From the NCBI RefSeq assembly GCF_000214355.1, contig NC_015577.1, positions 1 through 64,000 on the forward strand: 64,000 nt of DNA. Reading direction: 5' to 3'. Below the pieces are notes generated by a model that worked only from the letters and a program-made list of their open reading frames with translations, ran no database searches and had not been told where the DNA came from. This DNA comes from Leadbettera azotonutricia ZAS-9. GTDB taxonomy: Bacteria > Spirochaetota > Spirochaetia > Treponematales > Breznakiellaceae. The position numbers and the translations under genes are program-made. Shown piece after piece: positions 45,864 through 52,395 of the stretch (positions are counted from its first letter, which is position 1; each line of letters opens with the position of its first letter).

Positions 45864-46715
45864 TTACCATGTTTTCACGCTTCCCGTGAAGATGTCCTTT
45901 ACCTGATCTTTGGACAGCCCGTCAAGGGGATTCTTGAGGTTTACTATCACTGCAATACCGTCCATGGCTATAGTCTGAGCCGTGAGGCCCTTCTCTTCTT
46001 CGCTGGACTTGAGTTCCCGCGAAGCCATTCCGATATCGCAGATGCCGCTTATAACCGCGTTCATGCCAGTGGAAGAATCGCTCTGCTGTATCTCGATGTC
46101 CAGGCCGGAATTGATTTTAAGATATGCTTCGCGGAGTTTTTCCATCACCGGGGTTACCGAGGAAGAACCCGCCACGATAACTTTGCCCGAAACTTTCCCC
46201 CCCGTAAAGGCGCCCTTATTATCCATGGGTATATAGCCGTTTTTTTCTATCACCGCCTGTCCTTCCCTGCTCATAATGAAGCTGATGAAGTCCGCGGCCT
46301 GGGAAGTGGGGCTTCCCTTAAGGGCAATAAGGAAGGGTCGGGAAATCTTGTAGCTTCCATTCAGGATATTGGCAACGCTGGCGGTAACCCCGTCTATCTT
46401 CAGGGCCTTTACGGTACTGTCGAGCGAACCCAGGGAGATATACCCGATGGCGTTTATATCTCCTGCAACCGAGGTCATCATGACTGCCGTGTTGTTGGTG
46501 ATTTCCGCGCTGTCCGTGGTCATGTCAGCCTTGTTGGCGTCCAGCACATTGAAGAGTTCCGTAAAGGCACTCCTCGTACCCGAGCCGTCCTCGCGGCTTA
46601 TAATCGTAATCTGTTTTTTCTGAGCCTGGCTGCCGCCTGCGGCAAAAACCGCGGGGCTCCAGAAAACGCCTGCCAAAAGGGCAGATGCCATGATAGTTCT
46701 GAAAATGCTTTTCAT
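45864..46715 (-). CDS. pstS: phosphate-binding protein PstS
   Basis: The 283-residue product has a signal peptide (MKSIFRTIMASALLAGVF to about VFA). A phosphate-binding fold follows, with EDGSGTRSAF (phosphate loop), SSSVTPVMEKLREAY and QQSDSSTGMNAVISG, which match PstS. No lipobox is seen, so it is probably free in the periplasm. GGAAGGAG precedes the ATG. It is the first gene of the pst-pho operon, and phased Pho-box-like repeats lie 39-77 bp upstream. Confidence 0.94.
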   Translation of the reverse strand: MKSIFRTIMASALLAGVFWSPAVFAAGGSQAQKKQITIISREDGSGTRSAFTELFNVLDANKADMTTDSAEITNNTAVMMTSVAGDINAIGYISLGSLDSTVKALKIDGVTASVANILNGSYKISRPFLIALKGSPTSQAADFISFIMSREGQAVIEKNGYIPMDNKGAFTGGKVSGKVIVAGSSSVTPVMEKLREAYLKINSGLDIEIQQSDSSTGMNAVISGICDIGMASRELKSSEEEKGLTAQTIAMDGIAVIVNLKNPLDGLSKDQVKDIFTGSVKTW

Positions 46716-50907: not shown

Positions 50908-50979
50908 GGACGACTAACTCAGCGGGAGAGTGCTACCTTCACACGGTAGAAGTCACTGGTTCAATCCCAGTGTCGTCCA
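50908..50979 (+). tRNA. tRNA-Val (anticodon CAC)
   Basis: The 72-nt sequence folds into a standard cloverleaf. The acceptor stem is GGACGAC/GTCGTCC with discriminator A. The D-arm carries CGGGAG, the anticodon stem is CTACC/GGTAG, and the T-arm has GGTTCAATCCC. The anticodon loop TTCACAC gives anticodon CAC (50940-50942), reading valine GTG codons. The CCA end is not encoded. Confidence 0.93.
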
Positions 50980-51050: not shown

Positions 51051-51079
51051 TTGACATGATGAATTAATGTCGATAAATT
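51051..51079 (+). promoter_or_regulatory. candidate promoter of the outer-membrane protein gene
   Basis: TTGACA (51051-51056) is separated by 17 bp from TAAATT (51074-51079). The -35 is perfect. The predicted transcript starts just before two tandem palindromic units, so these fall in the untranslated leader. Confidence 0.55.
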
Positions 51080-51081
51080 CC

Positions 51082-51129
51082 TAGTAAATACTTCGTATTA
51101 CTAATAATAGTAAATGCATAGTATTACTA
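51082..51129 (+). repeat. tandem 22-bp palindromic units before the outer-membrane protein gene
   Basis: Two 22-bp units (51082-51103 and 51108-51129) match in 19 of 22 positions and are separated by ATAA. Each starts TAGTAAAT and ends GTATTACTA, so each is itself an imperfect inverted repeat. They lie between the promoter and the ribosome-binding site AAGGAG (51136-51141). They may be paired operators for a dimeric regulator, or RNA hairpins near the start of translation. Confidence 0.7.
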
Positions 51130-51147
51130 CATTATAAGGAGTGTATT

Positions 51148-52395
51148 ATGAAAAAGATTTTCGGGTTCATCATGGTTTTAACGGCAATAGGATTAATTGC
51201 CGGCGGAGGGCTTTTTGCCCAAGAGCTCAAGTTTGACGGTTATGTAAATAGCGGTCTCGGCCTGGTCATAACAGACCAAACGGAAACGGCAAAATATCCC
51301 TACATAACGGCCTTTGGGGTTGATTCGAACCAATACGGCTACCGGTTCCGCCTGAACGGTGCGTATACCAACGAAGCAGGCAATGCAGGGGCAAAATTCA
51401 GGTTCCAATCCCAGGCGCGTTCAGACATCTTCTTTACCATTCCTTATGCCTTTCTCTGGACAAAATTTGCAGATAACGTGGTAACCCTGAGCGGCGGCCT
51501 GGTGGATGATTCCACATGGACCACCGCCGGGTTTGTCCTTGCGGACGATCAGGGTGAAGGACTTGGCGCCCTGGCAAAGGTCACCCCCATAAGCGGCCTG
51601 GACATAGGCGCAGGGGCGTATGTTATCTCTATCGGAACAGGGGACGCCAACCAGAATTTGCTCTCGAGTCTTGCCAATAACAGAATAGATTGGTATAACG
51701 CTAAATATGTTTTTAACCTGGGCTATACCCTGCCTGATACCGTTAAGTTTCTTGCCACCTACCGTACCGTTAACAGAAGCAATGGCAGCGGCCAGTCAAG
51801 CAGAGCCATCGTAAGTATTGATCTCCGGGCAGTCGAAAATCTTACGGCTGTTCTAGAAGTCGAAGCGGACAACCTCCAGGATTTTAAAGCCTTAAAAAAT
51901 GGTGAAAAAGACGCCTGGTATAATACACTTGATTCCACGACTTCAGGATCAAAAACCCCTATTGGATCCTCGGGAAAAGTAAATTTCTTCGAAACCCTGG
52001 GGTACAAAATTGATAGCCTTGGGTTCGGGCTGAACGCTGTTCAATACATATCCCTTGCCTCTGATACCGATCCGGGGCTGGTCTTTAATCCCTGGGTAAG
52101 TTATACATTGGGTTCTGTTGTCCCCCGGCTGGATGTAATATATTTTACCGGCGGTAATAGCGCCCTTAATACAACTGGTAACAGCAACGGAAAATATCAC
52201 CGTACCGGCTGGAATGTTGTTTATGACAAAGATTATACCCTTCTTTCCTTCCGGCCTTCCGCTAAATTCAACCTTGACCCCAAGACCTTTATAGAACTTG
52301 GAGACTTAATAAACATTGAAAAAGTAGCAGAAGGTACGGGCACAACTTCCCGGATCACCAATGTGTTCTATGTAGATTTCAAACTGGCCTTCTAA
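51148..52395 (+). CDS. outer-membrane beta-barrel protein (porin-like)
   Basis: The 415-residue product has a signal peptide (MKKIFGFIMVLTAIGLIAGG to about LFA). The rest consists of alternating short hydrophobic strands typical of a beta-barrel, ending in VDFKLAF. The terminal phenylalanine is a common outer-membrane protein signature. Segments such as YGYRFRLNGAYTN, ITVNLG-like strands and GLGFGLN-type turns fit a porin. The expressed leader with tandem palindromes suggests tight control. Substrate and partner proteins are unknown. Confidence 0.72.
   Translation: MKKIFGFIMVLTAIGLIAGGGLFAQELKFDGYVNSGLGLVITDQTETAKYPYITAFGVDSNQYGYRFRLNGAYTNEAGNAGAKFRFQSQARSDIFFTIPYAFLWTKFADNVVTLSGGLVDDSTWTTAGFVLADDQGEGLGALAKVTPISGLDIGAGAYVISIGTGDANQNLLSSLANNRIDWYNAKYVFNLGYTLPDTVKFLATYRTVNRSNGSGQSSRAIVSIDLRAVENLTAVLEVEADNLQDFKALKNGEKDAWYNTLDSTTSGSKTPIGSSGKVNFFETLGYKIDSLGFGLNAVQYISLASDTDPGLVFNPWVSYTLGSVVPRLDVIYFTGGNSALNTTGNSNGKYHRTGWNVVYDKDYTLLSFRPSAKFNLDPKTFIELGDLINIEKVAEGTGTTSRITNVFYVDFKLAF

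Follow-up and report, generated by a model that had tools for sequence, protein, structure and literature searches.

The 64,000 nucleotides analysed here (the window) belong to the genome of Leadbettera azotonutricia ZAS-9, a single contig of 3,855,671 bp. At 51148..52395 on the forward strand they carry a gene for a 415-aa protein, whose ATG at 51148 follows a ribosome-binding site read from the sequence (AAGGAG, 51136..51141, forward strand). Between this site and a sigma-70-type promoter (TTGACA-17-TAAATT, 51051..51079, forward strand) lie two 22-bp units on the same strand, TAGTAAATACTTCGTATTACTA at 51082..51103 and TAGTAAATGCATAGTATTACTA at 51108..51129, which are identical at 19 of 22 positions, are placed as the original prediction had described, and start 26 bp apart. 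Unit 1 starts 2 nt past the -10 hexamer and spans the expected transcription start. The promoter, which had been called a good one, matches at 10 of 12 positions and its layout is repeated at other sites, although similar matches are frequent in the region (4 observed against 2.8 expected). Each unit had also been described as palindromic; the palindrome is present but imperfect, with the architecture TAGTA-A-ATAC-NNN-GTAT-TACTA, in which the left half carries one extra A, and in the inner arm of unit 2 a G replaces an A. A tRNA-Val gene (cac, 50908-50979 of the window) lies immediately upstream of the promoter, and a Mutator-family transposase gene (PF00872, 55232-56473) lies downstream of a gene that we read from its sequence as ftsH-like.

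Neither Pfam nor NCBIfam has a family that matches the 415-aa product. The protein begins with a signal helix and ends in a C-terminal Phe, and AlphaFold2 models it as a beta barrel with about 19 strands (pLDDT 78.4, pTM 0.75). The best Foldseek matches of this model in the PDB are porins, namely the major outer membrane protein (MOMP) of C. jejuni, PorB and OprD-type proteins (E about 1e-11 to 1e-8, TM about 0.5; for MOMP 5ldt, E 2.5e-11 and TM 0.55-0.57), and the resemblance to these proteins is one of fold only. Because of the barrel model, the Foldseek matches and the terminal Phe, the product is predicted to be a porin-type outer-membrane protein, in agreement with the earlier claim that the regulated gene encodes an outer-membrane protein. 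Named records with homologues of this porin come from Treponema and Spirochaetaceae metagenome-assembled genomes, which we take to be of termite-gut origin, and from Spirochaetia bacterium MS502-30. The presence of the units before orthologues had been named in advance as a test, and its outcome was divided: 3 of 31 homologous porin loci, besides that of ZAS-9, carry a site upstream and the remainder do not. Control of the porin by this putative operator is thus a trait of some lineages.

A joint pattern of the two units, allowing up to 3 mismatches, matches the window only at the units themselves (2 matches) and finds nothing in 100 dinucleotide shuffles of the window. Control by a Pho system, prompted by a phosphate-type binding protein nearby (45864-46715), was dropped because this pattern has no other match in the window. 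The genome scan proposed with the original prediction returned, at up to 1 mismatch, one extra copy in 3.86 Mb (C1:887902-887923, 1 mismatch), which brings the total to three. At 3 mismatches the genome gives 10 matches against 15 for a reversed-pattern control; scans at this threshold are largely noise, and our claims are therefore restricted to sites with at most 1 mismatch. The extra copy sits 29 nt upstream of a gene of the uncharacterised family DUF2325 (PF10087; L019:1197-1472, at about 887,950 of C1), which is divergent from metY, followed by a gene for an SsuA-like binding protein. Weaker variants of the unit occur twice before the SsuA-like gene and once before metY, and a scan with a weaker variant finds metK as an independent 1-mismatch match, with a second unit 25 bp upstream of the first. 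A weak site is also present at cysK. DUF2325 genes are likewise positioned behind a site in G156 and G159, which suggests a role in sulfur metabolism for this family.

We scanned 195 genomes of the family with a pattern built from the window units alone. Outside ZAS-9, at up to 1 mismatch, it finds sites at genes for an SsuA-type binding protein and for the porin orthologue in G006, a sulfate binding protein (above the curated cut-off) in G092, cysK in G119, an NMT1-type binding protein in G123, a sulfonate-permease-like protein in G073, and what we read from the sequence as an oligopeptide-type binding protein in G094; the site in G090 has no convincing target gene. A widened pattern at up to 2 mismatches gives 117 distinct sites (9, 24 and 84 at 0, 1 and 2 mismatches), a set that leaves out two 2-mismatch sites (G186:C216 and G199:C45), while the reversed control pattern gives 62 matches, 5 of them at up to 1 mismatch. 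Sulfur-type neighbours accompany 22/33 sites with at most 1 mismatch, 33/84 with 2 mismatches and 0/30 reversed-pattern control sites, counts that are partly circular, as the widened pattern and the position weight matrix (PWM) were derived from sites near sulfur genes. The reference proteins for these counts were drawn largely from the site loci themselves. At the sites with at most 1 mismatch, these neighbours are cysK, metY, DUF2325 and genes for sulfate, sulfonate, cystine and methionine transporters; overall, the operator is found before cysK, metY, metI/metN/metQ, DUF2325, the porin, and genes for sulfonate, cystine and sulfate binding proteins. Pfam and NCBIfam counts in the flanking open reading frames are consistent with this (PALP/cysteine synthase 6/52, DUF2325 3/52, SsuA family 9/117, cystine-type binding protein 6/117, O-acetylhomoserine sulfhydrylase 4/117), in a comparison that lists 25 of the 35 families for the control sites. 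Good sites also occur at genes with no evident sulfur role (L074, L090, L092).

Since the widened pattern was shaped by sites at sulfur genes, we tested separately cysK promoters picked by gene alone. For 27 cysK upstream regions outside the training set, the best PWM score is at least 8 in 10/27, against 6/540 shuffles, and at least 4 in 19/27, against 16/540 shuffles. Together, the scans strongly support a putative sulfur regulon marked by the operator across the family.

The placement of the sites relative to promoters is also shared. Among 30 hand-chosen site-gene pairs (most of the sites at up to 1 mismatch for which a gene could be assigned, together with L064, L066 and L264), 27 have a promoter scoring at least 9 of 12.5; for 18 of these 27, the distance from the end of the -10 box to the start of the site is -4 to +4 nt, and for 3 it is 27-28 nt. 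When all gene sides are taken without hand choice, a promoter score of at least 10 is reached at 22/38 for sites with up to 1 mismatch, against 4/19 for controls. A site that starts near the end of the -10 box is in the place where repressors block initiation. Partner sites lying up to 90 bp away are concentrated at a spacing of 25-27 bp, at 10 loci with PWM at least 8 and at 15 with PWM at least 5, and the background at PWM at least 8 is 12 in 208,632 flanking positions; unit 2 of the window, 26 bp downstream of unit 1, falls in this range. Such clustering argues that the doubled operator is a recurring design with a spacing of about 2.5 helical turns, and this recurrence in turn suggests that the doubled sites may act cooperatively. 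The original prediction had proposed cooperative repression of a surface protein, and the porin-type barrel, the recurrent partners and the operators that in most promoters start where the -10 box ends are all compatible with it; the surface protein and the doubling are borne out, and repression and cooperativity are presumed.

Our search for a regulator covered the Rrf2 family, of which ZAS-9 has four genes (PF02082). Two of these overlap (Rrf2a-Rrf2b, C1:1080892-1081754), share an operon with genes for two Cys/Met PLP enzymes and lie beside cystathionine lyase. The operon locus is L101:2893-4951, and many genomes of the family retain the overlapping pair: of the 30 Rrf2 loci obtained for the family, 15 have the twin arrangement, and in 10 of these 15 cystathionine lyase is encoded upstream. 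The candidate regulator exceeds the PF02082 cut-off, which places it in the Rrf2 family, and its closest solved chains include CymR (2y75, 3t8r). Rrf2a carries a C-X5-C-X5-C motif; Rrf2b has no cluster cysteines. Several genomes link Rrf2 genes with cysK. The gene order in G119 is site-cysK-Rrf2a-Rrf2b; G120 has these three genes in one operon but no recognisable site there. The twin pair precedes cysK in G023 and G147. In genus g65, a single Rrf2 gene lies at cysK in G193 (L208, site PWM 23.2) and G186 (L224, 22.5); the G193 site lies between the Rrf2 gene and a divergent nitrogenase-like gene and could thus serve either. Rrf2b was detected in 111 of the 195 genomes. Among the 50 genomes at least 90% complete, picked by completeness alone with no contamination filter, it is present in 8/8 with a site at up to 1 mismatch, against 16/42 of the others (P = 0.0014, kinship ignored), and overall in 21/27 genomes with a site against 90/168 without (P = 0.014, kinship ignored); of 5 genomes with control-pattern matches, 1 has it. 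The likeliest reader of the operator would be the Rrf2a-Rrf2b pair, and we infer both the identity of the regulator and the direction of control.

There is perhaps one chance in a few that both the operators and the sulfur regulon exist but the operators are read by another protein (for instance a LysR, TetR, ArsR or MetJ-like one), with the twin Rrf2 genes encoding a neighbouring regulator of sulfur or Fe-S metabolism. Rrf2b was not found in 6 of the 27 good-site genomes (G006, G019, G073, G090, G140 and G159, 71-85% complete), and in four of these, G006, G073, G090 and G140, there is no Rrf2 match at all, even though G006 and G140 have perfect sites. The ZAS-9 twin operon itself has no site (nothing scoring at least 3 at L101), and we discarded the idea that it is autoregulated. 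Against another reader stand the cysK-Rrf2a-Rrf2b genes directly behind the site in G119, the Rrf2 genes beside cysK and a site in G186 and G193, and the presence of Rrf2b in all 8 near-complete genomes with sites, the Rrf2-free genomes being incomplete assemblies.

A more distant alternative dispenses with a DNA-binding regulator, each transcribed unit instead forming a stem-loop that acts on translation, mRNA stability or attenuation. Each unit can fold into a stem of 9 pairs interrupted by one bulge, the substitution in unit 2 turns an A-U pair of the stem into G-U, and pairing across the sites drops when partner columns are slid. The proportion of paired cells over 27 distinct sites (90.1%), however, barely exceeds that of column shuffles (89.0%; 113/500 reach it), covariation is 0.100 against 0.088 in shuffles (110/500 reach it), and the fold of 51080-51160, in which the two units pair with each other, is weak (z -1.83, equalled by 11/200 shuffles). 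Moreover, some sites overlap the -10 box, their orientation relative to the gene varies, with cysK sites mostly opposite, and the third genomic copy in ZAS-9 breaks an outer pair. Apart from the tRNA, no Rfam family scores above its gathering threshold at the unit region. The tests for a structured RNA switch were negative by Rfam, folding and covariation alike, and the RNA-based switching that had been offered as the other explanation of the doubled sites is not upheld. We consider an RNA hairpin very improbable; the two units are, on the comparisons made here, operators. That a mobile, REP-like palindromic repeat landed before the porin by chance is hardly credible, for although the units are palindromic and doubled, only three copies at up to 1 mismatch exist in 3.86 Mb, the many promoter-less intergenic copies of such a repeat are absent, and sites at this threshold elsewhere adjoin functionally related genes at a fixed place in the promoter.

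The regulon that the operators appear to define can be compared with known systems. Tandem met boxes, contiguous 8-bp sequences at sulfur amino-acid genes, are bound by the repressor MetJ; the sites here resemble them as adjacent repressor sites at genes of the same kind, but are 22-bp units about 26 bp apart. PhoE and OprP are phosphate-starvation porins, induced together with inner-membrane uptake, and the ZAS-9 porin would be similarly co-induced with the inner-membrane uptake of one nutrient, with the differences that the nutrient would be sulfur and that the barrel has no family match. CymR of Bacillus subtilis is a repressor of cysK, ssu, mccAB and tcyP whose activity is adjusted by CysK and O-acetylserine, according to PMC3828012 and PMC2940859. 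The likeness to CymR of Bacillus and Staphylococcus comes from the Rrf2 family, the gene neighbourhood (Rrf2 encoded beside cysK or cystathionine lyase) and the kinds of targets, which for CymR comprise cysK, ssu and genes of cystine uptake and of the methionine-to-cysteine type (PMC3828012). The cysteine, sulfonate, cystine and methionine genes of a CymR-type target set are those counted above at 22/33 sites against 0/30 controls. In contrast to CymR, the host here is a spirochaete, the Rrf2 genes are twinned, the operators are often doubled about 26 bp apart, and an outer-membrane porin and metK are among the targets. Among the equivalog models, CymR gives the Rrf2 proteins their highest score or shares it about evenly with IscR, but every score is below the cut-off of its model: for CymR (NF047409, 195 bits), Rrf2a scores 107, Rrf2b 120 and the g65-type Rrf2 (L208) 120, and for IscR (207.55), Rrf2a scores 106 and Rrf2b 92. 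Rrf2a thus resembles Fe-S proteins of the IscR type in its cysteine motif and nearly equal scores, whereas the sites here are at sulfur-uptake genes and Rrf2b lacks the cluster cysteines. Because of these scores, we infer a regulon that works like that of CymR and do not assign the proteins as CymR.

The two units are, in our view, likely tandem operators belonging to a sulfur-limitation regulon that is common to termite-gut-type treponemes and under a CymR-like Rrf2 repressor, with the porin derepressed at low sulfur. The repressor, probably Rrf2a-Rrf2b, would sit on the operators while cysteine or sulfide is abundant and block transcription, and two adjacent dimers would repress the porin tightly and with a steep response. 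Sulfur limitation would lift repression and turn on the porin together with the inner-membrane uptake systems, to whose importers it would pass sulfur compounds across the outer membrane. The porin, probably made during sulfur shortage since the operators also precede genes of sulfur uptake and use, would then be the outer-membrane arm of the sulfur response. A more speculative extension, which we think rather unlikely, is that the asymmetry of the operator (the extra A on the left) reflects an Rrf2a-Rrf2b heterodimer and that the tandem copies integrate cysteine and Fe-S status in setting outer-membrane permeability; the single Rrf2 of genus g65 might then go with a symmetric site, and the L224 site is symmetric (TAGTAATC-N6-GATTACTA).

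The literature searched, including the available portions of PMC2869319, PMC2940859 and PMC3828012, yielded no description of such a sulfur regulon for these spirochaetes, which are abundant termite-gut symbionts, and nothing on Rrf2 or CymR in spirochaetes. The operator, the target list and the candidate regulator pair would connect sulfur supply to outer-membrane permeability. The regulon also offers a handle on DUF2325 and flags nitrogenase-like genes as possible sulfur-salvage enzymes. These NifD/NifK/NifH-type genes adjoin sites and sulfonate-type permeases (L060:2941-5688, L061, L182:126-998, L208:3-1301) and possibly encode methylthio-alkane reductase, a sulfur-salvage enzyme. In three genomes, a gene for a riboflavin-type ECF transporter S component lies near weak or 2-mismatch sites (L242:1548-2138, L082, L161).
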